Source: Alcaligenes ammonioxydans
GTDB lineage: Bacteria > Pseudomonadota > Gammaproteobacteria > Burkholderiales > Burkholderiaceae_B
Reading direction: 5' to 3'
Length of the DNA: 64,000 nucleotides
NCBI RefSeq assembly: GCF_019343455.1
Contig: NZ_CP049362.1
Span: 3,410,001 to 3,474,000 of the forward strand
Of this stretch, positions 12,807 to 47,213 are shown piece after piece. Numbering within the stretch: position 1 is the stretch's first letter; every line of letters starts with the position of its first letter. The position numbers and the translations under genes are program-made. The notes under the pieces are model-generated. The model saw only the letters and a program-made list of their open reading frames with translations, searched no databases and had not been told where the DNA came from.

Positions 12807-12818
12807 GTTAAAAACACA

Positions 12819-14780: not shown

Positions 14781-14793
14781 ATACAACTCTTTA

Positions 14794-16111: not shown

Positions 16112-16125
16112 GCTGGTTTTCCGAA

Positions 16126-17250: not shown

Positions 17251-19968
17251 TTACTTTGAGTTTTTAGGGTGAACAGTTAATAAACAGGCGTCTTTTTCAA
17301 GTTTGTATTCAGTGGATGTACCTGCAAGTCCTCGGGCTTCTATATCTGCCAACCAATGCTGAGCGATTTGCTTTTCATCCTCACGGATATAGTCATCCAT
17401 CAAAAAATCAATCTGGGCATTAGGGAAATGCTCCATCAACAAAGGCCCTGCGGGGTATCGGGCTTGAGGGCCCGTAGCCGCCGGAGGACCGTCCACAATA
17501 ACTAAAATGCGCTTTCGAGGAACTTGCTTTTGTCTGGCCAGTTTGGCCAAGGTGCTTTGGCAGCTGTAATACGGATAAACTTGGCCGTCCGCAGACTGCC
17601 AGTCCTTAAGTGGTGCCAGTGTCAGCTGTACTGCCTGCTCCAACCCTGCTTGTTGGAGATGAGCTAAGGTTTGCTCGTAATACGAATCCAAATGCTCAAA
17701 AGACACGAACTGGGTCTGTCGGGTATCACCACGTTCCGCCATCAACGCTAATGTCTTAGCCACAATAACGGTGGACACGCCTGACCCAAACTCAATGACC
17801 AGGTCGTAGGGTTTAAGCACCAATTGCCGCATCAAACATAATGCAAAGTCTGCAGAGATTGGCCAACTGTGGGCCTCACTGTTAAATGCAGGTAGCACTC
17901 CAGTGACAAAATACTCTTGCATCCCAACAAAGGACTGGAGCTGACGTACAGCATTAGCACTATTCTTCTTCACTGCTATTTCAAGATGGCGACGAATACG
18001 GAGCAGCTCTTCGGATTGCTTTTTAAACAATTCCTCTTGTATCCCTGGAACTGCCGCTTCACGAGCGGCCAAGGACTGCACTTGGGCACTCAAACGCTCT
18101 AGCAGATCTGTTTCACGCGCAGTCTGCGCCGACAATGATTGCTGTAACTCCAGTTGGCGTGCCTCCAGTGCGGCTTTACTCTTTTCCAAGCTCAGTTGCT
18201 CTTTAGCTTGCTGCAACAACTCTCCCTGACGCTGTGCAGCCAAAGCTATGTACTCATCACGAACTTGAAAAGCTTGACTCAATTGAGCCTGCAAAGACTT
18301 ATGGTCTGTTCGCTCCACATTGATTTGCTGCCTTGCCTCATCTCGTTCCTGCGTTATTGCCTGAACTTGAGATTGCAACGCGTGCACTTCATCCAAGCGC
18401 TGGGCAGCAAGCACAACCAATCCATCACGGGCCTGCCTTAACTCCTGCACTTGCAAAAGCAAAGAGTCCTTTTCTTCCTGAGTGTCTCGCAGTTGCACCC
18501 GAAATTCCTCACACTCTGCAACTGATTCCTCTAACTGCACCAGCAGGGACTCAACCTCCTCCAAACGTTGCTCTGCAATTGCAAGTGACTCATCATGAGC
18601 GATACGCAAAATTTGAAGCTGCGACAAGGCTTCCTCTTTCTCGCGGTGGTGCATCTGCAGCTCGCCCTTAAGCTGCTCACATTGCTGGGCCATATCCGCC
18701 AAGCCACCTTGCACAGTGACACATTGTTCAAACCATTGCCCTGCTTGTGCCTCTTTGTCCTCCAGAGCTTGCCTGATCCGTTTCAGATCAGCTTGCAAAC
18801 CCACGCACTCACGTTGCGTCTGTAACTGCAACTGTTCTTCTTGCTCCAGCTCACGCTTCAAATCCGCTACTTGTTTGAGTGCAGCCTGCGTATTGCCCTG
18901 CTCCTGACGCATGAACTGTCGCTGCTGATCTTCTTGCTGGCCTCGCTCTTGAAGGGTTTTCTGATGATCCTGCTGTAACTGCTGGATCTGTGCTCGCAAT
19001 GCTTCAACTACTACAAGTTGCTCTTGTTTTTCTTGATTCAGACGCTGCACCTCATCGCGCACGCTAGACAGCTGTATTCCTTGCTGTTTAAGCCTACTGA
19101 CCATCGCGTTGCGTGATTCAGCCAACTCCGCCCACTGACGCTGCACCGCCGCATGCTGCGCCTCAACCTCAGATACAGAGCGGACTTGATCCAAACGAAA
19201 CTCTTTCGCCTGCTTCAGCAAACGATCACGCTGACGCGCCTCAGAGTCAGTAAAAGACACATCCTCGGGTAAGAGCGCCAAGAGTGCTTCTGCCTCAAGC
19301 AAATCACCAGACTCATGCAATCGGAACGCCAACCATTTTTGACGAAACCCACGTGGCTCCAACGCAAAGGCCCGGCGCGCCATCGTCGCAACCAAGGTTG
19401 GTTCAACCGTCATATAAGTCCGGGCTACAGCTGTCCACGCACTGGCTTGCACACTTTTTGAAACTGAAGCCTGATCCAGCAAGGATTCGACTTGAGAGTC
19501 CCCCCCTTGCTGATACGCCTGAATAACTTTGTCGAAAGATTTCCCACCCAGTGCAGCAGGAGGCTGGGTGCGACGACTTTGACGCCAAGCCTGACGCAAA
19601 CGCCCCGGCACCGAGATCAACGAGCCTGTAGACTGCACACCCTCAATCAAAATGTCGCCAAGCTGTTTAGCTAAAGCATATTGAGTCTTTAAGTCATGTA
19701 GCTGGGTTTGCACCTTAAGCAGGCACTCCAAGCGAACACTTTCCGCCTGAATTTCGATAAGCCGCACATCCACAGGTGCCACATTAATGACTGTCGGCTT
19801 CAAATCACGCCCAGCTGCTTGGGGGTGATCATACAAACGCCCTAACTCTTCCTGCACAACTTGCAGTTGATCAAACAACAGCCGGTTCTCCTCTTCCAAA
19901 CATTGCACATGCGTGGATACCGGTTTCTCATGACCTAATTCAGAAGGCACAACAGGTGAAATAGACAT
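17251..19968 (-). CDS. Long coiled coil fused to SAM-methyltransferase-like domain; possible chain-length ruler
   Basis: A 905-residue protein in three parts. Residues 1-120 are helical and partly coiled. Residues about 130-265 look like a helical repeat segment. Residues about 265-660 are one almost unbroken coiled coil, very rich in Gln, Glu, Leu and Arg. The C-terminal 229 residues (677-905) form a class I methyltransferase-like domain with VIEFGSGVST at 724-733, and ILVIVDGPPAATG near 821-833. The known WbdD proteins that end E. coli O8/O9 chains also join a methyltransferase to a coiled coil that acts as a ruler. The place of this gene between kpsE and wecB fits a similar role here, but that is inference. 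The ATG at 19968 has AGGAAG upstream. Confidence 0.7.
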   Translation of the reverse strand: MSISPVVPSELGHEKPVSTHVQCLEEENRLLFDQLQVVQEELGRLYDHPQAAGRDLKPTVINVAPVDVRLIEIQAESVRLECLLKVQTQLHDLKTQYALAKQLGDILIEGVQSTGSLISVPGRLRQAWRQSRRTQPPAALGGKSFDKVIQAYQQGGDSQVESLLDQASVSKSVQASAWTAVARTYMTVEPTLVATMARRAFALEPRGFRQKWLAFRLHESGDLLEAEALLALLPEDVSFTDSEARQRDRLLKQAKEFRLDQVRSVSEVEAQHAAVQRQWAELAESRNAMVSRLKQQGIQLSSVRDEVQRLNQEKQEQLVVVEALRAQIQQLQQDHQKTLQERGQQEDQQRQFMRQEQGNTQAALKQVADLKRELEQEEQLQLQTQRECVGLQADLKRIRQALEDKEAQAGQWFEQCVTVQGGLADMAQQCEQLKGELQMHHREKEEALSQLQILRIAHDESLAIAEQRLEEVESLLVQLEESVAECEEFRVQLRDTQEEKDSLLLQVQELRQARDGLVVLAAQRLDEVHALQSQVQAITQERDEARQQINVERTDHKSLQAQLSQAFQVRDEYIALAAQRQGELLQQAKEQLSLEKSKAALEARQLELQQSLSAQTARETDLLERLSAQVQSLAAREAAVPGIQEELFKKQSEELLRIRRHLEIAVKKNSANAVRQLQSFVGMQEYFVTGVLPAFNSEAHSWPISADFALCLMRQLVLKPYDLVIEFGSGVSTVIVAKTLALMAERGDTRQTQFVSFEHLDSYYEQTLAHLQQAGLEQAVQLTLAPLKDWQSADGQVYPYYSCQSTLAKLARQKQVPRKRILVIVDGPPAATGPQARYPAGPLLMEHFPNAQIDFLMDDYIREDEKQIAQHWLADIEARGLAGTSTEYKLEKDACLLTVHPKNSK

Positions 19969-19993: not shown

Positions 19994-21184
19994 TTAATCC
20001 ACATGGTCCAGGACAATGCTCTTGAGCAGCTTCAAAATCCCGGCCAGGATCAGCGCCAACAGCAAGGTCACCAAGGTGTTGTACAGACGGCGTGGTTCCA
20101 TCGGATACTCAGGCAAGGTGGCGGACTGCAGCACAGACACTTTCTCCAACATGCGAGTGGCGTCAATCCTGCCTTTCTCCAAAGCAGTCAAAGACGACTT
20201 GTAGAGCTCTTGCGTGAACTGCACATTCATCTCCAAGCGGTAGAACTCTTCTACGTACTTATTCAAGGTGCCACCCGATGGCGTCGCCAATTTGAGTTTC
20301 TCCGCTTTGATTTGCGCATCTACAGCCTTTAAAGACTGCTTGAGCATCTGGATGTTGGGATGGTCGCGATCCAGACTTTTGGGTAAGGAGGCCAACTGGG
20401 TCTGCAACTGCGCGCGCTGCCCTTCTAACGTCGCGATAATGGCGTTGATACTTTCCGCGGTCGCCTGGGGCGACAACAAGCCAGCCTTGTTTTGGTAGTT
20501 CAGCAGCTCCTGGCTGGCTTTCTGAAACCGTTCCTGAGCCTGATCAACCTGCGTGACCAGAAAATTGACTTGTACCTGGGCCATCTCATGGCCCAGCTCG
20601 TTCATATAACGTTCGCCTTCCTGGACCAACAGCTCGGTGATGGCCTGTGCCATCGCAGGCTCATAGGCCTGGACCTGAATGCGCAGCACGCCCGAAAACT
20701 CGTCGAACTCGACCTTCACTCGTGATAAATAATGGCGATGGAACCATTCCATCGACGCATCCTGGAACCACATGCGGGAAATCACGTCGTGCTCCGACGA
20801 ACTGTAGTGAGTCCGTAAATCCAGCGACTCATCCAGCTTCTTCAACATATCCACGGAAAGCAGATAGTCGCGCAGCAGCAGCTGATTAGCCCGGTCCGCA
20901 GATGCAACCCCCGATACCAGCATGCCCAGGTCAAAAGAAGGTGAGCCAACCGAGTCCGTCTTACGTATGATGACGTTCGCTTCGGAAACGTAGCGGTCCG
21001 AGGCAAAGAACAGCCAATAAGCCGTCGTCAGAACAGCCAGGATCAAAATCAGGCGTACCGCATGATCGAAAAGCCGCAACGAAAACCAGGCGCGCACACG
21101 CGCTATAAGCGAAGGTTTCTTAAGCGCCTCCTTGTCGGAAGAAGCACCAGGAGACTGCAGCGGAACGTGGGGTGTATCTGTCAT
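19994..21184 (-). CDS. kpsE: Capsule export inner-membrane protein KpsE
   Basis: A 396-residue polysaccharide co-polymerase/membrane-periplasmic adaptor. It has an N-terminal membrane segment at about 38-60 (AVRLILILAVLTTAYWLFF), a long periplasmic helical part (about 190-330) and a second membrane segment near the end (about 365-388, NTLVTLLLALILAGILKLL). This is the layout of KpsE/BexC/CtrB proteins, which link the KpsM-KpsT transporter to the outer-membrane channel in ABC-dependent capsule export. Its ATG overlaps the kpsT stop (ATGA). With KpsT, KpsM and the Wza/KpsD-like lipoprotein it forms one export complex. Confidence 0.9.
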   Translation of the reverse strand: MTDTPHVPLQSPGASSDKEALKKPSLIARVRAWFSLRLFDHAVRLILILAVLTTAYWLFFASDRYVSEANVIIRKTDSVGSPSFDLGMLVSGVASADRANQLLLRDYLLSVDMLKKLDESLDLRTHYSSSEHDVISRMWFQDASMEWFHRHYLSRVKVEFDEFSGVLRIQVQAYEPAMAQAITELLVQEGERYMNELGHEMAQVQVNFLVTQVDQAQERFQKASQELLNYQNKAGLLSPQATAESINAIIATLEGQRAQLQTQLASLPKSLDRDHPNIQMLKQSLKAVDAQIKAEKLKLATPSGGTLNKYVEEFYRLEMNVQFTQELYKSSLTALEKGRIDATRMLEKVSVLQSATLPEYPMEPRRLYNTLVTLLLALILAGILKLLKSIVLDHVD

Positions 21185-21843
21185 TTTGGAAGTGAATCCT
21201 TGTAGGCGTTAAGCGCATCATCGATCTGGTCGAACCAGTGCGCTTTTCCCTTATGCAGCCAGACACCAGCCTGGCAAAACTGTCTTAACGTATTGTTGTC
21301 GTGCGCGACCATAATCAGGCCGGCGCGGTTGGTCATGGTTTTAAAAGCATCTGCGGCTTTCTTGCGAAATGCCGCATCGCCTGCGGCGGTAACTTCGTCG
21401 GAAATGTACACATCAAAATTGAAGGCGAAAGACAAGGCAAATTGCAGCCTTGAGCGCATGCCCGACGAGTAGGTATAGACTGGCTCCTCAAATGCCTGTC
21501 CCAGTTCCGAGAAGTCTTTGATAAACGCCAGGCGGTCTGCCAGATCATCTTGATGACCATGAACACGGCATACGAACTTGGCGTTCTGGCGCCCGGTCAA
21601 CGTACCTTCCAAGCCGCCATTGCCCATCGGCCAGGACACACGACACAACCGCTCTACAGAGCCTTTGTTCGGGTGGTCTACCCCCCCAATGAGCCGAAGC
21701 AGGGTTGATTTACCCGCTCCATTAGACCCAATGAGCCCCACATTGACCTTGGGTGGAATAGTTAGATTCACACCTTCCAGGACCCATTTGCCGACACCGT
21801 GGGCCGTTTTGTAGCGTTTGTAAACGTCATTGACGATGATCAT
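21181..21843 (-). CDS. kpsT: Capsule export ABC transporter ATPase KpsT
   Basis: A 220-residue ABC ATPase of the polysaccharide export class, without the C-terminal glycan-binding extension of Wzt O-antigen transporters. The Walker A is GSNGAGKST at 39-47, the signature YSSGM is at 125-129 and Walker B VYISDE is at 145-150. The start is ATG 21843, which overlaps the kpsM stop (ATGA); a longer reading to 21912 runs into kpsM and lacks family support. It powers transfer of the finished capsule chain across the inner membrane. The lack of an extension fits group 2-type capsule export. Confidence 0.93.
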   Translation of the reverse strand: MIIVNDVYKRYKTAHGVGKWVLEGVNLTIPPKVNVGLIGSNGAGKSTLLRLIGGVDHPNKGSVERLCRVSWPMGNGGLEGTLTGRQNAKFVCRVHGHQDDLADRLAFIKDFSELGQAFEEPVYTYSSGMRSRLQFALSFAFNFDVYISDEVTAAGDAAFRKKAADAFKTMTNRAGLIMVAHDNNTLRQFCQAGVWLHKGKAHWFDQIDDALNAYKDSLPK

Positions 21844-22634
21844 TTCATCACCAACTGCTGGGAGAAACGTCGGTACAGCAGCAAGCCCAAAAACAAACTG
21901 GTGATACCCCACGCATACAGATACGCCATGCTTACCCCAGGCACCATATGGTAGTAACTTGAAAAGCCATGCCGCACAAACTCCAGGCCATGCACTAAAG
22001 GATTAAGAAGCAACCAATCCCGATAGGGCTGAGGCACAGCAGAAACTGGCATGATGACACCCGAAAGCAGATACAAGGGCATCATCAGAATCTTCAGAAT
22101 ATGCTCGGTTTCACGAACCAAGGCCATCAAGACCGAAGCGACCAGTCCGTAGCCCACGCCAAACAGCCATAAACCAAACATGGCGATAAAAACCCGCAAA
22201 GGGTCATCAGGTCGAACGTCATGCCCCAGCAAGGCCACCCCCGTCAGAATGACAGCCGCGACCAGGACCATCAAAAATGCTTCTAATGATCCACGTGCAA
22301 TAGCCGTATCAAACGGGTGAACTTGCCGATACGCGAACAAGGGCCTGTTGCTATCTGCCGCATACATCACCTGCATCGCCGTACGGCGAAACATAAAAAA
22401 CGCCAGCATCCCCACCACAATCCAGACGGTGACATCAATACCGCCCACGGTACGCAGGCGAATCACCGTAAAGATGAAGGTGATGAAACTGATATGCAGC
22501 ACCGGTTCCATCAACAACCAGAACCAGGCAGCCCGCATATCAAACAGTCGATCCAAGGATTCGCGCAACAGCAGCGCCCGCCACACCGCCCAGGTGACGG
22601 CCATGGGACTGCGCACCTGATTATTCATATCCAC
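21840..22634 (-). CDS. kpsM: Capsule export ABC transporter permease KpsM
   Basis: A 264-residue ABC-2 permease with about six membrane segments (starting near 30, 60, 110, 140, 170 and 230) and the family block REPVLHIS-like LMEPVLHISFITFIF near 40-54, plus MPLYLLSGVIMPVSAVP near 180-196. It forms the membrane channel partner of KpsT. The kpsT start overlaps its stop codon by 4 bp. A second ATG lies two codons downstream of the first; either may be used. It follows the lipoprotein gene by 36 bp. Confidence 0.92.
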   Translation of the reverse strand: MDMNNQVRSPMAVTWAVWRALLLRESLDRLFDMRAAWFWLLMEPVLHISFITFIFTVIRLRTVGGIDVTVWIVVGMLAFFMFRRTAMQVMYAADSNRPLFAYRQVHPFDTAIARGSLEAFLMVLVAAVILTGVALLGHDVRPDDPLRVFIAMFGLWLFGVGYGLVASVLMALVRETEHILKILMMPLYLLSGVIMPVSAVPQPYRDWLLLNPLVHGLEFVRHGFSSYYHMVPGVSMAYLYAWGITSLFLGLLLYRRFSQQLVMK

Positions 22635-22670: not shown

Positions 22671-23870
22671 TCACTTCATCATGTTGTTCAAGGTCGTGCT
22701 AGGCACCGCCACCGACACCACCAGGCGCAAGAATTTCTGGAACTCTGCTGCTGGCGAGTTGGATACGTAGATCACGTCCTTGTCCTGAACCGGGAAGTTC
22801 TGGGTGACAAAAAACGAGGCGGGATCGCGCAGATCAATTTCGTACACCACGGGTACCACGCCTTTCTTGTCCAGCAAGGTCGACTCGGTCGCCCCCTCCA
22901 CCAGCGCGGCGTCCTCAAAGCGGAAAACAAACACACCGCGAGCGTCAGCCCGCGAGGTGTCCAGACCGCCGGAACGGGCCAGCGCCTGCACCAGAGAAAT
23001 GCCCTGTGCTTCAAAGGGTATTTCTTCGTTCTTGCCGGTTGCGCCCAGAATAGAGAAGCTCTGGTTCTGGTAGAGCGCCGTGATCACATCGCCCGGTTTG
23101 AGCATGATGTTCTGGTTCGGATTGCGGATGATGGTATCCAGCGCCATCGTCGCTGTGTTTTGCTCACGCGAGAGCTGAATGGCAATGCGGTTGACCGCCT
23201 GCTTGACCCCACCGCCTGCCGCCAGCGCGTCCAGCAAACGTTCGCCTTTGGGCGTCAAGGGCATCAGAATGCTTTGATTGACCTCGCCAACCACGGTCAC
23301 GTTGGAAGTATTGTTCTGAATCACCCGCACCAGTACTTGAGGGTTGTTGGCCTTGCCTTGCAAACGCTTGGTAATGCTCTCTTCAATCTGTTGGGTGTTG
23401 CGGCCCTGAACCGGAATGCGGCCCGCAAACGGCATGCTGATCATGCCATCGGGCGTCACCATCTGCTCAGGAAAGGCAACGGCGTTGGTCGTTGCTGCGG
23501 TCGCCTTGGGGTCCAGGGAAATACTGCCAAACAACATGGCAGGCGGCGCCTCCCAAACGGACACTTCCAGAACGTCGCCGGGGCCGATCAGATAGTGGTT
23601 TGAACCGCTGCTGGGGAATTGCGCCGCAAAGTCGCCCATGCGTTTTTTTGCGGCCAGCTTCTTGGTCAAGGAGTCGGTGACATTGACCAGGGTGATGCCC
23701 TCAATCCGACCTTCGCGACGTTCCTGTACCTGCTGGCGGCTGGGGCCGTCGGCGGGCATCCAGTCGGGCATCGTGGCGCATCCGGCCAGTACCGAAACCA
23801 AGGCGCTGGCCATGAAGGGACGTCCCAGTGCTGCCATCTTGCTAACTGCTGTGTGTAGTAATTGAGCCAT
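22671..23870 (-). CDS. Outer-membrane polysaccharide export lipoprotein, Wza/KpsD/WcbC-like
   Basis: A 399-residue secreted lipoprotein. The signal peptide ends in the lipobox LAGC with Cys31. A Poly_export domain follows (HYLIGPGDVLEVSVWE near 93-108) and then two SLBB-type repeats, with LKPGDVITALYQNQ and VQDKDVIYVSNSPAAEFQKFL. Proteins of this family form the outer-membrane channel for capsule, as Wza in group 1 and KpsD/CtrA in ABC-dependent systems. Its place beside kpsMTE indicates the latter role. It starts 2 bp after the oxoamine synthase stop. No damage is seen. Confidence 0.9.
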   Translation of the reverse strand: MAQLLHTAVSKMAALGRPFMASALVSVLAGCATMPDWMPADGPSRQQVQERREGRIEGITLVNVTDSLTKKLAAKKRMGDFAAQFPSSGSNHYLIGPGDVLEVSVWEAPPAMLFGSISLDPKATAATTNAVAFPEQMVTPDGMISMPFAGRIPVQGRNTQQIEESITKRLQGKANNPQVLVRVIQNNTSNVTVVGEVNQSILMPLTPKGERLLDALAAGGGVKQAVNRIAIQLSREQNTATMALDTIIRNPNQNIMLKPGDVITALYQNQSFSILGATGKNEEIPFEAQGISLVQALARSGGLDTSRADARGVFVFRFEDAALVEGATESTLLDKKGVVPVVYEIDLRDPASFFVTQNFPVQDKDVIYVSNSPAAEFQKFLRLVVSVAVPSTTLNNMMK

Positions 23871-23872
23871 GC

Positions 23873-25198
23873 TTATTTCTTCATGAGCGTGTGAACGGTC
23901 TCACACGCCAGATCTATGTCATCGCGGCTATGCGTGGAGGACAGGAAAAAGCGCAGCCGTGCCGCTTTTTCTTCCACCGCCGGATGAATAATGGGTTGCA
24001 CATTCATGCCGGCATCAAACAACTGACCGGACAGTTTGACTGCTTTAAGAGAACTGCCTGTGATCGCGGGAATGACGGCATAGCCTTGGGCAAAGCCGGT
24101 ATTGATTCCCATCGAACGCATCAAATTCAGAAACTGCTTACCACGCTCTTGCAGGGCATGCACACGCTCGGGTTCCCGGCGCATGATCTGCAAGGCTTGG
24201 AGCGAGGCAGCCGCCAGCACAGGAGAAATACCCACGCTGTACACAAAGCCGGAGGCGGCATATTTGAGCAATTCCACCAGCGCACGGTCACCTGCGATAT
24301 AACCGCCGCAACTTGCCAAGGTCTTGCTCAAGGTCCCCATCCAGATGTCCACGTCACCGCCGGCCACATCAAAGTGCTCGTGCGAACCACGACCGGTTTT
24401 GCCCAGCACGCCCAATGCGTGAGCCTCATCGACCATCAAGAACGCTTTATAGCGCCGTTTTATGTCAGTAAATGCAGGCAGGTCGGGGATGTCGCCATCC
24501 ATGCTGTACAAGCCTTCGATCACAATCAGCACGCGTTCGAACTGCCCCCGAATCTCGGCCAGAATGCGCTCCAGCGCAGCGCTGTCGTTATGGGGAAAGG
24601 AACGGCGAGCGGCACCCGATAGCTGGATGCCTTGCAAAATACTGTTGTGAATCAGGCTATCGTGGATGACCAGATCCTTGGGGCCAAACAAGTAACCAAT
24701 GGTGCTGACGTTGGTGGCGTGTCCGCTGACAAATACAACGCAGTCCTCCACCTCGTAGTTACGGGCCAGTTCTTCTTCCAGTTCACGCTGCACACGACGC
24801 TCGCCCGCCACCAAACGGCTGGCCGAGGCAGAGGTGCCGTACTGGTCCATGGCGGCTTTGGCCGCCGCATTCACTTCCGGGTGTGCGGACAGACCCAGAT
24901 AGTTGTAATTGGCAAAGTTCAGATAATCGCGCCCGTTGATACGGGTACGTGCCGCGGCCGCGCCGTCATGGCTGCGAAAAAAGGGATTACGCACCCCCAT
25001 GCGATCCGCCATGGCCTTGGGCACCAGCATTTTCTCGTAGCCAGGGTGCCGGTCAAAGCGGGTAAAGGCATCCGGAATGGCGCTGGCCACCGTGCGATCG
25101 GCCATACGGCCATCACTGGCCGCCTGCCCCGTCTTACGTCCCAAAATGCGCTGTATCAATTGTGCTTTGCTGCCTGGCGCCAGATCGTTCTTACTCAT
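23873..25198 (-). CDS. PLP-dependent alpha-oxoamine synthase, WcbT-like
   Basis: A 441-residue enzyme of the BioF/Kbl/serine palmitoyltransferase family. An N-terminal extension of about 90 residues precedes FANYNYLGLSAHPEV. The PLP pocket shows H160 (VSGHATN), DEAH at 257-260 and the Schiff-base lysine K292 (TLSKTLASCGG). Such enzymes condense an amino acid with an acyl thioester and release CO2. The start codon overlaps the PKS gene by 8 bp, and the PKS ends in an acyl carrier protein without a thioesterase. I infer that this enzyme takes the acyl chain from that carrier and gives an alpha-amino ketone, as Fum8p does in fumonisin synthesis. There are no biotin genes nearby, so BioF is unlikely. 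The B. pseudomallei capsule locus has a similar gene, wcbT. Confidence 0.85.
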   Translation of the reverse strand: MSKNDLAPGSKAQLIQRILGRKTGQAASDGRMADRTVASAIPDAFTRFDRHPGYEKMLVPKAMADRMGVRNPFFRSHDGAAAARTRINGRDYLNFANYNYLGLSAHPEVNAAAKAAMDQYGTSASASRLVAGERRVQRELEEELARNYEVEDCVVFVSGHATNVSTIGYLFGPKDLVIHDSLIHNSILQGIQLSGAARRSFPHNDSAALERILAEIRGQFERVLIVIEGLYSMDGDIPDLPAFTDIKRRYKAFLMVDEAHALGVLGKTGRGSHEHFDVAGGDVDIWMGTLSKTLASCGGYIAGDRALVELLKYAASGFVYSVGISPVLAAASLQALQIMRREPERVHALQERGKQFLNLMRSMGINTGFAQGYAVIPAITGSSLKAVKLSGQLFDAGMNVQPIIHPAVEEKAARLRFFLSSTHSRDDIDLACETVHTLMKK

Positions 25199-28100
25199 TG
25201 ATCAGTGATGTTCCTTTTTCTGCCAAGCGCTGTACGTCCTGCGCCAGACCTTGCAAATCCGCCTCGGACATCTCGTCTCCATGCTGACGTACGACACCGG
25301 CGACCAAATGCCCTGTTTCCTGTTCGGCTACATCCCCGTCCACGGCGATCAGCTTGTCCACAATGCGGGTGGCCACGTTCCAAACGGTCGGCGAGTCGTT
25401 CAGCACCATGGCGGGCAACTGCACACCAAACCGTTGCTCCAGACCCAAGGCCAGCTCCACGGCCATCAGGGAGTCCATGCCCAGGTCATGCAAGGAACGC
25501 TGTGTTTCGATGCGGTCCACTTCCGTGCGCAAGATGCTGGCCACTTCCTGCGCCACCCACTCGGCCACCAGGGCGTGGATCTGCTCGGGCGTCTTGCCCT
25601 GCATCAGCGCCTGAATATCCTGGCCTTCACTGCCCGCCTCATGATCCTTGAGGGCACGGTTCAGAATGGCAAAGCGTTCGCTCTGCGCGCAGGCCAGCAA
25701 GCGGGACAGGGCACTCCAGTCGAAGTTGGCGACGATGGACACATCGCCATTGCAGGCCAGCACACGATCCAGCTGATCCAGTGCCTGCTCGGACGGCAAG
25801 GGTGCCTTGCCCAATCGTTTGCTCAAGCTGTCTTTGACGGTTTCATTGCGAGTCAAATAACCGGCATCACCAATCGGCCCCCAAGCAATGCACGAGGCGG
25901 CCAGACCCAGACGCTGACGCAAGCGCGTCAGCCCTTCCAGGCCCGCGTTGGCCGCCACGTAGTTCGCCTGCCCCGGATTACCGATAGCCGTTGTCACCGA
26001 GGAATACAGCACGAAATGCGACAGGGCCAGATCCCGAGTGGCCTGGTGCAGATTCCAGGCACCGACCAACTTGGTTTGCAGCACCTTGTCCAGACTGTCC
26101 TGATCCATATTGGCGATCAGGCGATCATCAAACACGGCAGCAGCATGCAACACTCCGGTCAGCGGGCGATCGCCCGCCTGAATGTGTGCCACCACGGCCT
26201 GTACGGCAGCGTAATCGGTGACATCACAGGCCACGATGTGTACATGACAGCCTTGTGCGCGCAGTTGCTCTTGCAATTCAGGCGCTCCGGGCGTATCCGC
26301 ACCACGGCGTCCGGCCAGCACCACCGAGCGCAGGCCACGCTTAACCAGCCACTGAGCCGATGCCAGACCAAAGCCCGACAAGCCGCCCGTAATCAGCCAG
26401 GTTCCCTGTGCGGACAAGTCCACGGAAGCGGCCACTGGCTCAACTGGCAACGTGGGTTGCGCATCCTTTAAGCCGACCACCAGCTTCCCAATATGACGGG
26501 CCTGCTGCATGGCGCGGAATGCGTCGACCACATGATCGGCACCGAAACGGCGATACGGCAGCGGGAACAGTGCGCCATCATGAAACAGGTCCATGACTTC
26601 TTTGAACAGGCGTCCTGCCAAAGCGGGACGCCCCGTCAACAATTGGTCGGCATCAATACCGAAATAACTGATATTGCTCTTGAAGGGACGCAGGCCAATC
26701 GGTGTGTTCTCGAAGAAATCACGTTTGCCCAGCTCCAGGAAACGGCCAAATGGGCTCAGCACATCGAGGCTGCGACGCATGGCTTCACCGGCCAGCGAGT
26801 TCAGCACCACATCCACCCCTGTCCCACCGGTGGCATCCATCACATCCTGTGCAAAGCTCAGGCTGCGCGAATCAAATACATGGTCGGCGCCCAGCAGGGC
26901 GGCAAATACCCGTTTTTCGTCCGTGCCGGCCGTGGCATAAATTTCTGCCCCCAGGTGTCGGGCCAACTGAATAGCCGCAATCCCCACCCCACCTGCAGCG
27001 CCGTGAATCAGCACTTTTTCACCAGGCTGAATATGAGCCAGATGCGTCAGCGCGTAATACACCGTGAAGAACACGGTAGGAACGGTGGCCGCCGCCTCAA
27101 AACTCCAGCCTTCGGGCATGGGGGCGATTGCGTCAGCTCGCGTCACGACATGGCTGGCAAAGCAGGAGGACCCAAAGCCCATCACTGGCTGGCCCACGGT
27201 CAAGTGCGTGACACCGGCGCCCAGACGAGTGACGACCCCCGAAAACTCCAGGCCCAGGCTGGCACCGGCAAAACCGTTTTCTACGGCTTCGTCTGGCAAC
27301 AGCCCCATCAGGTACATCACATCGCGAAAGTTCAGGCCGGCAGCCATGGTCCGGACTTCAACCTGGTCCGCAGCCAGTTCGGGCTCTTGCACCGCCTGCC
27401 ACTCCAGGTTGCGCAATTGTCCTGGCACCTGGAAGTCCAGCTTGAAGCGGGTATTCTGGCTCAACGGTGCCGTCGTTTTCTGAGTGGACTCTACCAAGAC
27501 CAAGGTATGACGCGCGTCTTGCGACAAGACAATTTCTGTGGCCCTATCCGGCCACAACAACTCTCGCTCCAGACGCGCCGCAACATCGCCGGCACTCACA
27601 TCACCGGCCAGATCAATCAATGTAGAGGACAAGGCTGGCAGCTCGTTCATGACGACGCGGGCAAAGCCCCACAGGGCCGACTGGGCGGGGTTCACCACCC
27701 AATCCAGCTTTTGTGCCGTTGCAGGCAAGGCTCCGCCTTGTGTCACCAGGAACAAGCGGCTGGCGCCAGCACGGGCGGACAGGCGCTGGGTCAAGTTCAA
27801 TAGCGTGGCGCTGTTCTGGCTCACGGCGTCAAGCGTATCGCCCCATCCCAGCATAGACACCACGTTGAGGGCGCCTTCCCCCATCAGCGCAGCATCCTCC
27901 AGCGGCCATGCCTGAGCGCTGACGCTTTGCCCTGTGGCTTGCAGGCGCGCCTGTAAAGACTGGGCCTGACGCTGGGAATGCCTATCAAATATGAGCAGCC
28001 AATTGCCAGCGGCCACGGTCTCCTGGTCCTGTTGGGCCTGGGTGCCCGCTGCACTGGCCACAAGCAGATAAGCGCCTTCGTTAAAGTCCTGAGCGGCTGG

Positions 28101-31100
28101 CTCCGGGGCGATCAGCGCCTGCTCAAAACCGGCCTCATCCAAGGCCTTGCGCCAACCCGCTGGTGATAGCAAGGAGGAAGATGGCGTATCGCTGCTGACA
28201 TGCCACCAGCTCGGGTCCAGGCCGGACAGGAAATCCGCATGCCAATCGGGATGACATTCCGCCAGCAATAACACACCACCCGCACAGAGCCATTGCTGGC
28301 TACGCACCAACGCCGAGGACACCTGCACGGTGCGATGCAAACTGTGACGCAAGATCACCACATCAAACGGCGTGGTGTCGCTGCGCTCCAGCTGCCACTC
28401 CTGCAGGTCAAAACCGATAACCTGCACATTGGCCAGATCATGATGCTGGGTGGCCTGACGCGCCTGCAAATCAGCGTCCGGTAAAGCCAGCACATATTCA
28501 AATCGATCTTCAGGCAGACACGCCGCCAGGGTTCTGGGCAAATCGCTGGGCCCCACCGCGACTTCCAGCACACGCAGTCGCTGGGACACAGGCAGGTTCA
28601 TCGCCAGCGCATGCAACTGGTTCTGCAACGCCAGACGTACCCCACGATACATGGGGTCATCGTCATACAGCACTTCCAGCACCGGGGATCGACGCAGGGA
28701 CGCCAACAGGGCCTCACCTGCAATCTCTCCACGCAGCAAAGCGGGGAGTTCACGGCCCACTAACCCGATCTGAGCAAGCAAGGGCAGACTGTCCGGCGAA
28801 TCCTGCAAAATGCTGCGCCACAAGTCCTGGGCTGCAGGCATGTCAGCCTGCTCCACCACACACCCGTCCTGAGCTTCTTGCAGCAGACCCTCTGCACGCA
28901 GCAGCGCTGTCATCCAGCGGCCATAGGGACTGTTCACGACCTCGTCGCTTCGCTCAGCGGCCTGGGTCTGCAGGAAGGCTTCATACACAAAAGACAGGCT
29001 CAAGGCATCGAGCAAGGGCAGGGTTTGCTGAAACCAGTCCTGACGCACCTGCTGCTGATCCGCCAGCGCGGCCCAACCACCTTGGACCAGCTGGTCGGGC
29101 GAGAGCGTAACGGCGGCTCGCTCATCACGCGGATGAGGACGCAGGTAAGGAGTGATCTGCCAGGTAGAGACGGCCTGACGATCCTGCCGCAAGAAATAGG
29201 CAGCACGGAAGCGGCAGGCCTGGGCGCTGGCCAACAAACGGCCATCGGCACCATAGAGTTCAAAATCCGCCAGTACGGAGCGGGCGCTGCTACGGCGTAG
29301 GTGAGCACGGAAATGCGTCACCTGCCCGTCGGTGGACAGCGTAAATCGTCCTACCTTCACGGGTAACAGGGCCACGCCTTGACCAGCCTCGATATCCCGT
29401 GCAAAGAAATCCACTAAGGACTGGTAGCACACGTCCATCAAGGCCGGGTGCAGCAAATAGCCGCCCTGCTCCAGGCTGACAGGCAGGGCCAGCTCTGCAT
29501 TCAGGTAAGCGCCTTGAACCCGGGAGGCTTTCAGGCCCTGGAAAGCCGGGCCGTAATCCAGACCCAGGGAATGCGCCAGACGATAGTGGCGTGCCTGGTC
29601 AATCTGCAGTTCAGCCGAATCCAGAGGGGATAGCTGAGCCAAGGGCATGCGCTCATCCGAGGCCAGAATACGACCGCTGGCATGCACAACCCACTCATCC
29701 TGGCTCAGGCGTTGGCGGCTCTTGATATGGAAGCTGCCATCGCGCGGGCTCAATACAAAACGCAGGCTGCGGGCATGTTCTCCGTCAAAGACCAGGGGAG
29801 CCAGAATATCCAGTTCATCGACCAGAATCAGTGTCTCTCCCAGCCATTCACGGGCGGCGGCCAACGCCATTTCCAGGTACGCGGCACCGGGGAACACCAT
29901 CGCCCCGCCCACTTTGTGGTCGGCCAGCCAAGGCAAGATCACCGGATCAAGTACGTTTTCCCAGCTGATGTCACTGTCGGGCAAGCGCCAGCCCAGCAAG
30001 TCATGCACACGACGACGCTCCATGGAGCGCATCCCCTCTGCGCTGGCTTTGTACCAGTGGCGTTCGCGCTGCCATGGATACAGTGGCAGGCTCACCGCTT
30101 TACCGGGCACCGGAAAGCGGCCCTTCAACTTGGAGGGCAACAAGGCCAATGTGCGCAGTGCGGTTTCAGCCAGACGCTGCGGACCATCATCCTGCTTGCG
30201 CAGAGAGGACAGCACCACACCCTGAACCTCGCTTTGACTCAAGGTGTCACGAATATAGCGTTGCAAAATGGCATGCGGGCCAATTTCCAGGAAAACACGA
30301 CACCCCTGTCTGGCGAGACACGCAATGGCTTGCTCAAACTGCACCGGCTCACGAATATTACGCCACCAGTAGTCCACGCCCAGCTCTTGCGCCGGCAGTT
30401 CCTGACCAGTCACGGTAGACACAAAACGGGCCTGGGGTGCCTGCTGACCAGGCTGCAAATCGCCCAGATTCTGTTGCAGGTGCGGCAACAAGCCATCCAT
30501 ATAAGGACTGTGAAACGCGTAATCCAGATCCAGCAGGCGAAAGAAAACGCTTTGGCCTTCCAGCGCAGCTTGGATACGTTGCAATCCATGCAGGCTGCCC
30601 GACAAGGTAATGTTGGACGGGCTGTTCACCCCTGCCACGTTCACCCCCAGGTCTGAGCCCAGGCCATCGAGCAAAGTGTTTACCGCATCCAATGACAGGC
30701 CAATGACGGCCATCCGACCTTGCCCCCGGGTCAGCCCTTGAGCCTGACTACGAGCACAAATCACACGTATGGCTTGGTCCAGGTCCAGGGCGCCGGCGGC
30801 CCAGGCGGCCGCAATTTCGCCCACGCTGTGACCGGTCACCGCATCGGGCCGGATACCATCCTCGCGCAGCATGCGCGTCACAATGACCTGAATGGCAAAC
30901 AGCAAAGGCTGGGCAACCGTGGTGTCGTCCATGCGGGAGGCCGCGGCGTCAGCCTGCAGTTGCTCCAGCAAGGAAAAACCGGCCAGAGGCCGCATCATCG
31001 TATCCAGCTCGGACAATAAGGCAGCAAAGCGGGGAGACTGGCGCAACAGGCTCAGGCCCATCCCCAACCACTGTGCGCCGTTACCGGCATACACAAAGGC

Positions 31101-32765
31101 CAACTGGCCTTCTTTATCCAGAGAATCTACCGTATACAGACCTTGCGGGTCCTGGCCTTGAGCGAAGGCTCGCAATTGCGCCACGCCCTCCTGAACCGTT
31201 TCAGGATGAATAATCAGGCCACGCGCCAAAGTTTGGCGACGATGTGCCGCAGCGTAACTAACGTCGTAAAAATCTTCGCCAGTCTTGCCGTCGAGCAAAT
31301 CCGCGTAATTGCCCGCCTGCGCACGTAGTGCGGCTTCCGTTTTTGCGGACAGGACCAATGGTGGCAGACCCAGCTCGGGTTGTTGTGCCCCGACAGGGGC
31401 CTGCGCCACAGGAGCCTGCAGCAAGACATGCGCATTCGCCCCACCAAAGCCAAAAGAATTCAGGCCAGCGACCAAAGGCTTGCCGTCGGCACGCTGCAAG
31501 GCACGACCCTGAACAAGCAACTCCAGATTCAGGCCGTCAAAATCAATCGCGGGATTGGGCGTATGTAAGTGCAAGGCAGGCGGCAGTGCCTTATGCTGCA
31601 GGGCCAGCACCGTCTTGACCAGCCCGGCCATGCCGGAGGCGGACTCCATATGCCCCAGATTCGCCTTGACCGAACCGATGGGCAGGCGCTCTTTACGCGC
31701 TTTGCCATACACCGCGCTGATCGCCCGGGTTTCAATCGGGTCACCCACGGCCGTACCAGTTCCGTGGGCCTCCACAAAGTCCACGTCCCCCGCAGCCAGC
31801 CCACTGCGCTCCAGCACGGAACGCATCAATTCGATTTGTCCTTGGCAACTGGGAATCGTGATGCCCGTCTTGCGGGCACCGTCTGCATTCACTCCCGTGG
31901 CCAAAATGACCGCCTGCACCTGATCCCCGTCAGCTAATGCCTGCTCCAAGGGTTTGAGCATCAACACCGCACCGCCTTCGGAGCGCACGTAGCCATTGCC
32001 TGATTCATCAAATACCTTGCAGCGGCCATCGGCCGACAACATCGAGGCCTTGGTAAAACCGACAAAAGGATAAGGATGCAACAACAGATTGACGCCACCG
32101 ACCAACGCGGTCGAAGCCTCGCCACTGCGCAGACTGGCGCATGCCTGATGCAAAGCGACCAGCGAGGACGAGCAGGCGGTATCGACCGCCATGGACGGTC
32201 CGTGCAAATCGTAGATATAGGACAGACGATTGGCCGCAATACTCATGGTATTGCCGGTCATCATATGGGAGGTCAGGCTGGCCAGATCGTCCAGCCCCCG
32301 CATGCCGTAATCCAGCCCGGAAATGCCGACATAGACGGCGCAGTCACTGCCGGCCAGCGTCGAAGGCAGGACGCCGGCGTTTTCCATGGCTTCCCAGGAC
32401 AACTCCAGCAACAGGCGCTGCTGAGGGTCCAGCCACGCGGCCTCACGTGGAGAGATGCCAAAAAAATCTGCGTCGAACTCGTCGATGCGCGAGAGCACCC
32501 CTGCCGAAAAGGTGATGCTGCGGCCTGGCTCGGCGCGCTTGTCATGCTGCAGCTCGGCCGTTGCCCAGCGATCGGCCGGAATTTGCGTGACCAGATCGCG
32601 CTTTTCAATTAGGGCATTCCAGAACTGATCGGGTTGCGACAAGTCACCCGGAAAGCGAAACGCCATACCAATAATGGCGATTGCACCAGACGAAACATTG
32701 CTTTTATTAATATCCGTACCGGATGCTTCAAACTTCTGAGCACCCTTGCCTGTATTTTGAGACAC
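25191..32765 (-). CDS. Type I highly reducing polyketide synthase, WcbR-like
   Basis: One module of 2524 residues. Ketosynthase: about 28-450, Cys198 in DTACSSS, His334, His372. Acyltransferase: about 555-860, GHSVGE with Ser647; YAFHS near 749-753 suggests malonyl units. Dehydratase: about 918-1190, His950 and Asp1111. A degenerate methyltransferase-like stretch: about 1360-1560. Enoylreductase: about 1785-2095, HGAAGGVG at 1921-1928. Ketoreductase: about 2120-2300, GGLSGFGLA, Lys2232, Ser2255, Tyr2269, Asn2273. Acyl carrier protein: about 2395-2475, GMDSL with Ser2432. No thioesterase follows. A full reductive loop in one module implies repeated use to make a saturated or nearly saturated chain. 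It is the first gene of the capsule operon and overlaps the oxoamine synthase gene. A capsule PKS of about this size, WcbR, is known in B. pseudomallei. Anchor-lipid synthesis is inferred. Confidence 0.9.
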   Translation of the reverse strand: MSQNTGKGAQKFEASGTDINKSNVSSGAIAIIGMAFRFPGDLSQPDQFWNALIEKRDLVTQIPADRWATAELQHDKRAEPGRSITFSAGVLSRIDEFDADFFGISPREAAWLDPQQRLLLELSWEAMENAGVLPSTLAGSDCAVYVGISGLDYGMRGLDDLASLTSHMMTGNTMSIAANRLSYIYDLHGPSMAVDTACSSSLVALHQACASLRSGEASTALVGGVNLLLHPYPFVGFTKASMLSADGRCKVFDESGNGYVRSEGGAVLMLKPLEQALADGDQVQAVILATGVNADGARKTGITIPSCQGQIELMRSVLERSGLAAGDVDFVEAHGTGTAVGDPIETRAISAVYGKARKERLPIGSVKANLGHMESASGMAGLVKTVLALQHKALPPALHLHTPNPAIDFDGLNLELLVQGRALQRADGKPLVAGLNSFGFGGANAHVLLQAPVAQAPVGAQQPELGLPPLVLSAKTEAALRAQAGNYADLLDGKTGEDFYDVSYAAAHRRQTLARGLIIHPETVQEGVAQLRAFAQGQDPQGLYTVDSLDKEGQLAFVYAGNGAQWLGMGLSLLRQSPRFAALLSELDTMMRPLAGFSLLEQLQADAAASRMDDTTVAQPLLFAIQVIVTRMLREDGIRPDAVTGHSVGEIAAAWAAGALDLDQAIRVICARSQAQGLTRGQGRMAVIGLSLDAVNTLLDGLGSDLGVNVAGVNSPSNITLSGSLHGLQRIQAALEGQSVFFRLLDLDYAFHSPYMDGLLPHLQQNLGDLQPGQQAPQARFVSTVTGQELPAQELGVDYWWRNIREPVQFEQAIACLARQGCRVFLEIGPHAILQRYIRDTLSQSEVQGVVLSSLRKQDDGPQRLAETALRTLALLPSKLKGRFPVPGKAVSLPLYPWQRERHWYKASAEGMRSMERRRVHDLLGWRLPDSDISWENVLDPVILPWLADHKVGGAMVFPGAAYLEMALAAAREWLGETLILVDELDILAPLVFDGEHARSLRFVLSPRDGSFHIKSRQRLSQDEWVVHASGRILASDERMPLAQLSPLDSAELQIDQARHYRLAHSLGLDYGPAFQGLKASRVQGAYLNAELALPVSLEQGGYLLHPALMDVCYQSLVDFFARDIEAGQGVALLPVKVGRFTLSTDGQVTHFRAHLRRSSARSVLADFELYGADGRLLASAQACRFRAAYFLRQDRQAVSTWQITPYLRPHPRDERAAVTLSPDQLVQGGWAALADQQQVRQDWFQQTLPLLDALSLSFVYEAFLQTQAAERSDEVVNSPYGRWMTALLRAEGLLQEAQDGCVVEQADMPAAQDLWRSILQDSPDSLPLLAQIGLVGRELPALLRGEIAGEALLASLRRSPVLEVLYDDDPMYRGVRLALQNQLHALAMNLPVSQRLRVLEVAVGPSDLPRTLAACLPEDRFEYVLALPDADLQARQATQHHDLANVQVIGFDLQEWQLERSDTTPFDVVILRHSLHRTVQVSSALVRSQQWLCAGGVLLLAECHPDWHADFLSGLDPSWWHVSSDTPSSSLLSPAGWRKALDEAGFEQALIAPEPAAQDFNEGAYLLVASAAGTQAQQDQETVAAGNWLLIFDRHSQRQAQSLQARLQATGQSVSAQAWPLEDAALMGEGALNVVSMLGWGDTLDAVSQNSATLLNLTQRLSARAGASRLFLVTQGGALPATAQKLDWVVNPAQSALWGFARVVMNELPALSSTLIDLAGDVSAGDVAARLERELLWPDRATEIVLSQDARHTLVLVESTQKTTAPLSQNTRFKLDFQVPGQLRNLEWQAVQEPELAADQVEVRTMAAGLNFRDVMYLMGLLPDEAVENGFAGASLGLEFSGVVTRLGAGVTHLTVGQPVMGFGSSCFASHVVTRADAIAPMPEGWSFEAAATVPTVFFTVYYALTHLAHIQPGEKVLIHGAAGGVGIAAIQLARHLGAEIYATAGTDEKRVFAALLGADHVFDSRSLSFAQDVMDATGGTGVDVVLNSLAGEAMRRSLDVLSPFGRFLELGKRDFFENTPIGLRPFKSNISYFGIDADQLLTGRPALAGRLFKEVMDLFHDGALFPLPYRRFGADHVVDAFRAMQQARHIGKLVVGLKDAQPTLPVEPVAASVDLSAQGTWLITGGLSGFGLASAQWLVKRGLRSVVLAGRRGADTPGAPELQEQLRAQGCHVHIVACDVTDYAAVQAVVAHIQAGDRPLTGVLHAAAVFDDRLIANMDQDSLDKVLQTKLVGAWNLHQATRDLALSHFVLYSSVTTAIGNPGQANYVAANAGLEGLTRLRQRLGLAASCIAWGPIGDAGYLTRNETVKDSLSKRLGKAPLPSEQALDQLDRVLACNGDVSIVANFDWSALSRLLACAQSERFAILNRALKDHEAGSEGQDIQALMQGKTPEQIHALVAEWVAQEVASILRTEVDRIETQRSLHDLGMDSLMAVELALGLEQRFGVQLPAMVLNDSPTVWNVATRIVDKLIAVDGDVAEQETGHLVAGVVRQHGDEMSEADLQGLAQDVQRLAEKGTSLINE

Positions 32766-38810: not shown

Positions 38811-40259
38811 CTAGTTGAATGCATGTTTGACGCTGGCTGTCTGTCCTGATCGCACCCGTACCGTGCTGCTAAACGGCGGCAGGCCGGCATTTTTAATCAG
38901 GATGCGGTGTGTGCCGGCCGGCAAGGACAAGGACTTCAACGGCGGGCTGACTCCCTGCTTGCGTCCATTGACATAGATCTCGCCCCACGGCCGCACATCC
39001 AGCACGACGGTACCTTTGGCCGTGGGCGCCGCTTGCGTCGGTGCAACGGCTTCAGGCTTGGCAGTATCCGCAGGGGTCGGCTCAACCCGCGGTAGACGGC
39101 TCGGCTCATCGGACGCTTGCTCTGGCTGGGCTGGCTGCGATGGCAGGGCATCCAACCCAGCCGACATGTCTGATACCTGTACCGCCTCGGCAGCCGGCTC
39201 GACAGCCTGAACCCGTGCCTGCCCGGCTAACACGCTGGCTTGAGCCGACATGGGCGCCAACGATGGAATGGCATCGGTCGTAACGGGTTGCACCGCCTGA
39301 AGCGCGACTGGTCCGCCTTCCTGCCCCTGCCCGGACACGGCAACGGATAACCCTGGCGGGGAAGACGGCTCACTCTCGCTCGAGGTGTTCGGGAGCGCCG
39401 CGACTGGCTCTGAAACGGCCTGTACGGACCCCTCTGCCGTCGGCAAACCCCGCAGATCCGCCTGGCCCTCCTGCCCTTTGGGAGCCGCCCCTCTGGAAGG
39501 GGTTTCGGCCATCAAGGCCTGGCCGCTCTCTGTGGTGGCAACAAGCGATCCTGACTCCTCACTGCCTGTGCTCCAGTACCCTACTGCCAGCCCTACCACC
39601 AGCAGCAAGGCCAAGCCGCCCAGCCAACGCCAGCCAAAGGCGCGGCGTTCGGTTCGTATGGGCAACACGGGCCGCGCCAGCGCTGTCTGCTCAGAGACAG
39701 AGTCAGACACCTGTCCTAACCTTTCCAGTCGTCGATACGACAGCATGGATTGCGGGCGCTGAACCCAGTCCAATGCCAAGCCCTGCAACATGGCCTGGGT
39801 GGGGCCATCCGCCTCCTCATCCATCCCCACCGGGTCCCTTAGCTGTCGCCAGGGTGCGGCCGTCAAGGGCGCGCCCGTCGTCAAGTGCCAGCGCAACGCG
39901 GCATAGCCGTAGACATCTGTCCACGGCCCAGCAGGCCGGGTCGGGTCGTCCACATACTGTTCAGGGGCCGCACAAGGCTCATCAAACGCCATGCCATAAG
40001 CACGGGCCTGAGTCAGGTTACGCTTGTGCAGGACCTGCGCCAGCGCTTGTAACTGAACCAGGCCCTCGTCGGTCAATATCACCGTATCCAAACCTAACGC
40101 GCCATACCATTCCTGCCGCTCATGCAATTGGGCCAGTTGCAAGGCCAAATGCTCCAGAATAAGCAGCCGCTGGTCCAGCGACAAAGAATCCAGAACCTGC
40201 CCCAAAGGACGGCCCTGTCCATCATGGGCAGAAGTCGTTCGTTTCATGAAAGTTCTCAC
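38811..40259 (-). CDS. T6SS-linked pseudokinase membrane protein with PEGA domain
   Basis: A 482-residue protein. Residues about 20-185 resemble only the C-lobe of a Ser/Thr kinase: LHERQEWYGALGLDTVIL at 45-62 stands where LHxxxxxHRDLKPxNIL would be, APEQ is at 98-101, and GPWTDVYGYAALRWHL at 111-126 is where the GPWSDVYSLG block falls. The N-lobe, the HRD aspartate and DFG are missing, so it should not phosphorylate. A membrane segment at 211-229 and a Pro/Ser/Gln-rich linker follow. A PEGA domain ends the protein (about 413-480, VRPWGEIYVNGRKQGVSPP). It follows tagF with a GTGA overlap; an ATG at 40247 is another possible start. A scaffold in the cell envelope at the secretion apparatus is the likeliest role. 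Confidence 0.75.
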   Translation of the reverse strand: MRTFMKRTTSAHDGQGRPLGQVLDSLSLDQRLLILEHLALQLAQLHERQEWYGALGLDTVILTDEGLVQLQALAQVLHKRNLTQARAYGMAFDEPCAAPEQYVDDPTRPAGPWTDVYGYAALRWHLTTGAPLTAAPWRQLRDPVGMDEEADGPTQAMLQGLALDWVQRPQSMLSYRRLERLGQVSDSVSEQTALARPVLPIRTERRAFGWRWLGGLALLLVVGLAVGYWSTGSEESGSLVATTESGQALMAETPSRGAAPKGQEGQADLRGLPTAEGSVQAVSEPVAALPNTSSESEPSSPPGLSVAVSGQGQEGGPVALQAVQPVTTDAIPSLAPMSAQASVLAGQARVQAVEPAAEAVQVSDMSAGLDALPSQPAQPEQASDEPSRLPRVEPTPADTAKPEAVAPTQAAPTAKGTVVLDVRPWGEIYVNGRKQGVSPPLKSLSLPAGTHRILIKNAGLPPFSSTVRVRSGQTASVKHAFN

Positions 40260-40999: not shown

Positions 41000-41000
41000 C

Positions 41001-45853: not shown

Positions 45854-45867
45854 AGCCATGCTCCGGT

Positions 45868-47190: not shown

Positions 47191-47213
47191 TGAATTAATC
47201 CGTTCCACACCTA

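Follow-up and report, generated by a model that had tools for sequence, protein, structure and literature searches.

A PKS and α-oxoamine synthase within a capsule gene cluster of Alcaligenes ammonioxydans: a predicted sphingolipid anchor

Genes of the capsule cluster

The stretch of DNA considered in this study, referred to below as the window, is 64,000 nucleotides long and corresponds to positions 3410001-3474000 of the single-contig, 3.77 Mb genome of Alcaligenes ammonioxydans. Its capsule genes, on the minus strand, are listed here by their coordinates within the window, with the evidence for each assignment in brackets. Other genomes (G) and loci (L) are designated by number where they need to be told apart.

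25191-32765, minus: iterative single-module PKS, rkpA/wcbR/sgaA type, TE-less, with degenerate MT (Pfam, catalytic motifs)
23873-25198, minus: alpha-oxoamine synthase (AOS), rkpG/wcbT/sgaB type, predicted SPT-like off-loading enzyme (Pfam/NCBIfam)
22671-23870, minus: Wza-like outer-membrane polysaccharide export protein (Pfam/NCBIfam)
21840-22634, minus: KpsM-type ABC permease (Pfam/NCBIfam)
21181-21912, minus: KpsT-type ABC ATPase (Pfam/NCBIfam)
19994-21184, minus: KpsE, BexC/CtrB/KpsE family (TIGR01010, 273 bits, under the cut-off of 437.5)
17251-19968, minus: u905, charged, coiled-coil-like protein of 905 aa (composition)
16126-17247, minus: WecB, UDP-GlcNAc 2-epimerase (TIGR00236, 518 bits, over cut-off)
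14849-16129, minus: WecC, UDP-ManNAc dehydrogenase (NF008286, 703.9 bits, over cut-off)
12819-14786, minus: GT4a, a GT4 protein in the variable, low-GC middle
10026-12806, minus: heparinase II/III-like protein in the variable, low-GC middle
9070-10029, minus: u319, second CE4-deacetylase-like protein (59% identity to u326)
8093-9073, minus: u326, polysaccharide deacetylase of predicted CE4/NodB fold, marker of the KpsC/S-free linker set (AlphaFold, Foldseek)
6771-8087, minus: GT4b, GT4 glycosyltransferase of the linker set
5689-6774, minus: GT1c, GT1-like glycosyltransferase (Glyco_trans_1_2) of the linker set
4195-5673, minus: GT2, a membrane protein resembling cellulose synthase (passes the GT21 Pfam cut-off too)
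3435-4271, minus: SDR, rkpH/wcbP/sgaC type, predicted 3-ketosphinganine reductase
1904-3445, minus: RkpI/WcbQ-type membrane protein, predicted phosphoglycerol transferase, LtaS/GacH fold

The export genes of a group 2/3 capsule (KpsM, KpsT, KpsE and Wza) are all present, KpsE falling below its TIGR01010 cut-off, and the cluster shares with group 2/3 ABC-dependent capsules a layout of conserved ends and variable middle. It differs from them in having no match to KpsC or KpsS, and hence no poly-Kdo-PG linker is expected. The gene adjoining KpsE encodes u905, which has no Pfam match at 0.001 and a long charged, coiled-coil-like stretch at about residues 240-660. Its C-terminal part looks by eye like a methyltransferase, a resemblance that Pfam does not support. 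The protein is possibly a chain-length factor, serving as ruler or terminator in the manner of WbdD. Elsewhere in the window, Type VI secretion genes (TagF, IcmF, DotU, VasE) occupy 38811-47217 on the minus strand, and genes for a permease, an EamA-transporter and a GntR-aminotransferase lie between them and the capsule cluster.

RkpI is found in 8 of 10 Alcaligenes genomes, that of A. ammonioxydans included, and its named relatives include proteins of A. aquatilis and A. faecalis. The seven other Alcaligenes genomes that were fetched all contain RkpI, SDR, GT2, GT1c, GT4b and u326 at 85-98% identity and wecC, wecB, KpsE, KpsT, KpsM, Wza, AOS and PKS at 82-100%. The heparinase-like protein and GT4a have no orthologue in those seven (best matches 22-32%, partial), and u905 and u319 vary between Alcaligenes genomes. 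The GC content is 36-38% at 10-14 kb, compared with 50-61% at 2-10 and 16-32 kb and 49% at 32-34 kb. The variable low-GC region at 10026-14786 likely represents the strain-specific capsule type. The lipid module (PKS, AOS, SDR and RkpI) and the linker set (GT2, GT1c, GT4b and the deacetylase u326) behave like common export machinery and not like serotype genes. A preliminary description of this DNA had proposed that the product of PKS and AOS is used by the capsule system, perhaps as its lipid anchor. Use by the capsule system gains support from the position of the module within a KpsM/T/E-Wza cluster, at ends conserved in 7/7 of the other Alcaligenes genomes fetched; the capsule may be attached to the lipid.

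A four-gene lipid module

The PKS (2524 aa, GTG start) has the Pfam domain order KS (28-400), AT (557-866), DH (921-1188), a weak methyltransferase (1423-1548; E 3.5e-5, 24 bits, under the cut-off of 27), ER (1799-2097), KR (2121-2299) and ACP (2402-2467). Pfam matches no thioesterase in the PKS, the ACP being followed by 57 residues and then the stop. Over 74 distinct full-length PKSs, that of the window included, the catalytic residues examined in KS, AT, DH, KR and ACP and the GGVG motif of ER are 97-100% conserved, and the glycine motif of MT is degenerate. The preliminary description, which saw a TE-less single module of the form KS-AT-DH-degenerate MT-ER-KR-ACP overlapped by 8 bp by the AOS gene, agrees with the domain order, the motif comparison and the coordinates of the overlap (25191-25198). 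The PKS is 36% identical to that of Sinorhizobium meliloti over nearly its full length.

The AOS (441 aa) retains the PLP-site residues H184, D257, H260, K292 and R416, which do not vary among 86 distinct sequences, the window's included. Spacing was measured at 76 loci, a few genomes contributing twice; in 60 of them AOS and PKS lie between -20 and +60 nt apart, and the pairing is therefore not a matter of chance. In Planktothrix the two are a single polypeptide (L140), the one true fusion among six loci tested; the long AOS frames of the other five (L009, L014, L015, L030, L035) gave no PKS match at 1e-10. The Planktothrix fusion, encoded near glycosyltransferases on plasmid p3 of P. agardhii (L140:5614-13212), has no match to the MT region of the window PKS.

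Sequence scores alone do not pick among the possible activities of the AOS. Its NCBIfam scores for bioF (346.8), glycine C-acetyltransferase (303) and SPT (302) are similar and all under cut-off, and its best PDB match, the bacterial SPT 3a2b (217.9 bits), is closely followed by a glycine C-acetyltransferase (215.5). These similar scores are what could be said for regarding the AOS as another BioF, or as a glycine C-acetyltransferase, with the PKS product released otherwise. I find that idea hardly credible. The genome has a better match to bioF (419.1 bits, itself just under the TIGR00858 cut-off of 426.45 that the window AOS also fails to reach), situated beside genes for a BioA-like aminotransferase class III, a P450 and a BioD-like ATPase, neighbors such as one would expect in a biotin operon. 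The AOS gene overlaps that of the PKS, fusion of the two exists, and the homologue SgaB uses serine to the virtual exclusion of alanine and glycine (PMC12134224). BioF activity, which the preliminary description had named among the findings that would overturn its proposal, is thus not indicated, and to judge from the sequences the window AOS is not the housekeeping BioF.

That homologue belongs to Pseudomonas fluorescens MYb115, whose PfSgaAB (PKS and AOS) gives rise in vivo to C24, C26 and C28 sphinganines, lost on deletion of either gene; SgaB in vitro is a palmitoyltransferase that joins acyl-CoA to L-serine; SgaC, an SDR, is the presumed reductase; and further lipids, heavier by 154 Da, have been assigned as phosphoglycerol sphingolipids (PMC12134224). 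The portions of that article drawn on here name no transferase for the phosphoglycerol step, and its text contains neither "capsul" nor "polysaccharide". The window resembles PfSgaAB(C) in possessing PKS, AOS and SDR and differs from it in that the module lies within a capsule cluster, there being no capsule link in the Pseudomonas case. The MYb115 sphinganines support the sphingoid-like amino ketone that the preliminary description had ascribed to the PKS-AOS pair, and its statement that no settled product was known has been overtaken, now that the basic chemistry is known from PfSgaAB (PMC12134224). A correction concerns the amino ketone: because an SDR is present, it is probably an intermediate, and the lipid may go on to gain phosphoglycerol.

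PKS and AOS are in fact half of a four-gene module. The preliminary description did not mention the other half, SDR and RkpI, at the opposite end of the cluster about 19.6 kb from AOS, nor the absence of KpsC/KpsS. The SDR, only 25% identical to that of S. meliloti, adjoins RkpI at all 28 RkpI loci compared, one per genome (L106-L133); in another genome, G514, there is an RkpI with no SDR match. When window genes were compared by tblastn with 80 related loci, RkpI, SDR, PKS and AOS were found near each other in some: all four cluster in loci of Halomonas, Methylococcaceae, Desulfobulbus, Amphritea and Paenalcaligenes, and RkpI, PKS and AOS occur together in Burkholderia and Paraburkholderia. 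Going by record names, module genes also have genes for capsule export or KpsS as neighbors in beta-, gamma-, alpha- and delta-proteobacteria.

The rkp-1 (fix-23) region of S. meliloti, to which synthesis of a lipid carrier or anchor has been ascribed with no structure given (PMC3557214, PMC4881576), has PKS, AOS, SDR and an LtaS-type RkpI in one row. In L138 the order PKS-AOS-SDR-RkpI-KpsS corresponds to rkpA-G-H-I-J; RkpI is missing from the incomplete gene table, but its translation matches PF00884 and shows LtaS-type motifs. The region differs from the window in that KpsS (rkpJ) follows RkpI, the slot that the window fills with GT2, GT1, GT4 and deacetylase. (The L138 record, CP090106.1, is called "plasmid pSymB", but at 3.7 Mb and with secD as well as the rkp-1 genes the label looks wrong.) The wcb operon of Cobetia is described as a lipid-carrier operon of little-known functions, wcbPQRT being termed "capsular polysaccharide lipid biosynthesis" (PMC11766843). 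By name this Cobetia/Burkholderia set is the same as the window module; it differs in that kpsSC co-occurs with it in Cobetia. A capsule cluster on a Pseudomonas plasmid (L139:6479-24662) has PKS-AOS, RkpI-SDR and three PF05159 proteins, together with a phytanoyl-CoA dioxygenase and a GNAT protein that might hydroxylate or N-acylate the lipid. From PKS to SDR its locus tags cover 30 numbers, a figure shared with MYb115 (NZ_CP078138; RS19805 to RS19775, SgaC being KW062_RS19775); since RkpI in L139 adjoins SDR on the side facing PKS, RS19780 is the candidate for an RkpI in MYb115.

RkpI has an AlkP fold with the E, Thr nucleophile, H, D and H of LtaS-type enzymes. Five transmembrane segments are predicted in 159 of 164 sequences, and the structure model has five long N-terminal helices. 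A search for a sixth put 13 of 167 sequences over the threshold in the region concerned; among five inspected, that of S. meliloti is a plausible segment, the other four being linkers rich in Ala, Ser and Pro. The mean number of K+R per loop over the 159 relatives (0.1/3.0/1.0/5.1/1.0/3.8) is opposite in pattern to that of E. coli EptA, where it fits the known orientation; the control with E. coli OpgB (6 vs 6) was balanced and uninformative. Loop charge hints at an inverted, cytoplasmic RkpI, but the full-length structural match of RkpI to EptA speaks against this.

In a serious rival explanation, RkpI/WcbQ adds glycerol phosphate to the polymer, and PKS, AOS and SDR alone make the anchor. 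In its favor, the outer face is where LtaS and GacH work. I nonetheless consider it unlikely, since RkpI belongs to the conserved part of the cluster while the polymer region varies, and since it lies beside SDR in 28/28 loci; the sphinganine derivatives of +154 Da in MYb115 (PMC12134224) also weigh against it.

Linker genes without KpsC/KpsS

PF05159, the family of KpsC and KpsS, has no match in the whole genome of A. ammonioxydans, in a search that does detect the E. coli control. I examined two collections of genomes in this regard, some of them MAGs, where absence of a gene is weak evidence. The first consists of 36 genomes with AOS that could be searched (from 38 given, from 80 loci), 26 of them with PF05159 and 10 without. 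The second consists of genomes with KpsE (TIGR01010, E 1e-40), 16 of 370 at the class level and 44 of 399 at the order level, A. ammonioxydans being in both, for a union of 59. Nine of the 59 lack PF05159. AOS at 53% identity or better is present in 31, of which 4 lack PF05159 (G000, G471, G514, G804), and RkpI is present in 20. The notion that presence of the module equals absence of KpsC/S can be rejected, as 27 of the 50 PF05159-positive genomes carry AOS: the lipid module is compatible with both. Five KpsE-positive genomes without KpsC/S have neither RkpI nor u326, and these must have some other solution.

What stands in place of KpsC/KpsS may be seen from the genes next to SDR-RkpI. Among the 28 of 36 AOS genomes with RkpI, 19 have a PF05159 gene there and 8 a GT2 of the window type beyond SDR, though in G015 it is only a partial match of 42% and in G001 some 1.8 kb of inserted DNA precedes it; G033 has the GT2 set at the cluster's opposite end. 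The marker u326 is present in 9 of the 36 (a partial match in G015), and it and PF05159 nearly exclude each other: 8 genomes have u326 only, 25 PF05159 only, 1 both and 2 neither (Fisher p=1.25e-5, with no correction for kinship). Both genomes with neither are MAGs. The one with both, Achromobacter pulmonis, has two capsule clusters: KpsC/KpsS belongs to one and GT2/deacetylase to the other, and each has its own copy of RkpI-SDR (L107/L143, L134/L144). When 15 of the 59 KpsE genomes are left out, u326 occurs in 2 of the 44 remaining: G514, with no PF05159, and G674, with only a partial PF05159 match on another contig. G674 and Paraburkholderia dinghuensis combine RkpI and PKS of 40-43% identity with linker genes of 58-76%, and so lipid module and linker set seem, by sequence comparison, to be exchanged independently. 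KpsT does not strictly track the linker set, since window-like KpsT (75%, 65%) occurs in two genomes with KpsC/S (L004, L023). The linker set was seen in Alcaligenes, Leeia, Nitrosomonas, Methylobacillus, Achromobacter and Paraburkholderia.

With no Pfam match at 0.001, u326 was modeled by AlphaFold (pLDDT 89.4), and the best Foldseek match of the model is ArnD (8t0j, E 7.5e-10), a deformylase of a lipid-linked sugar. The model suggests that u326 folds as a CE4 deacetylase. GT2 passes the Pfam cut-off for GT21, a family with ceramide glucosyltransferases, and is closer to cellulose synthase; it is a candidate for the first glycosyltransferase to act on the lipid.

It might be supposed that a KpsC/KpsS so divergent as to be invisible to PF05159 makes a normal poly-Kdo linker, for a Pfam search is blind to extreme divergence and u905 is still without a family. 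This strikes me as very improbable. Even at first look PF05159 yielded 0 candidates in the genome, u326, just as devoid of Pfam matches, has the predicted fold of a deacetylase, with u319 59% identical to it, and GT2 fills the slot beside SDR-RkpI.

The Vi antigen system of Salmonella is not known to include a PKS or AOS. That system resembles the window as an ABC capsule without KpsS/KpsC and differs from it in its use of VexE and a diacyl-HexNAc (PMC12220298).

A proposed anchor and its significance

I propose, with a probability of roughly 0.6 for the scheme as a whole, that the cluster builds its capsule on a PKS-derived sphingolipid anchor in six steps. (1) On its own ACP the iterative PKS would assemble an acyl chain, saturated and very long. 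(2) AOS would off-load the chain in a decarboxylative condensation, with serine as the most likely amino acid partner, to give 3-ketosphinganine, (3) which SDR would reduce to sphinganine. (4) RkpI would move phosphoglycerol from phosphatidylglycerol to give sphinganine-phosphoglycerol, which resembles lyso-phosphatidylglycerol. (5) GT2, GT1 and GT4, the CE4 deacetylases and possibly a sugar from WecB/WecC would construct a linker replacing the poly-Kdo of KpsS/KpsC. (6) Strain-specific genes of the middle would make the polymer, to be exported by Wza-KpsMTE.

In the homologous system of MYb115 the products of steps 1-3 have been shown (the role of SDR being presumed), along with lipids whose mass fits step 4. 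Serine is presumably the substrate of the window AOS as well. I infer the assignment of step 4 to RkpI, all of step 5, and the role of the lipid as anchor. The RkpI product would be analogous to the lipid of phosphatidylglycerol type that bears the capsules of E. coli, and would be the carrier here. A broader proposal, that PKS-derived sphinganine-phosphoglycerol is a further widespread Gram-negative anchor, replacing lyso-phosphatidylglycerol and combined with either linker set (poly-Kdo or Kdo-transferase-free), is tentative, a nearly even call.

The sphingolipid might instead be a free membrane or signaling lipid whose genes simply happen to lie among those of the capsule, with another anchor for the capsule itself. 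The correlation of MYb115 sphingolipids with host protection (PMC12134224) would accord with this, as would the five KpsE-positive genomes lacking KpsC/S, RkpI and u326. I judge it improbable. In all seven other Alcaligenes genomes fetched, each of the two conserved ends of the cluster holds module genes; going by record names, such genes recur next to capsule export or KpsS genes across four classes of proteobacteria, A. pulmonis has one RkpI-SDR copy per capsule cluster, and reviews describe rkp-1 mutants as KPS-deficient.

The proposal of a capsule on a sphingolipid anchor offers three new elements: a lipid module filled out to four genes and divided between the two conserved ends of a single capsule cluster; RkpI as the proposed maker of the published PG-sphingolipid in the capacity of capsule carrier; and a KpsC/S-free linker set, apparently exchangeable. 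Among the matches listed in a search of open-access literature, no paper joins capsule, AOS and sphingolipid. The rkp/wcb lipid carrier is still described as undefined (PMC3557214, PMC4881576, PMC11766843), and bringing capsule genetics together with the PG-sphingolipid chemistry of 2025 gives it a concrete, testable structure, with RkpI/WcbQ offered as the missing phosphoglycerol step. A 2025 review considers KpsS/KpsC conserved across ABC-dependent capsules apart from Vi (PMC12220298), and the linker set described here would be a further exception to that statement.

If the proposal is true, there would be a sphingolipid route of capsule anchoring in plant symbionts, nitrifiers and opportunists. 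Sphingolipids are usually linked with animals and plants; many bacteria not counted among their producers would then display capsules resembling glycosphingolipids.
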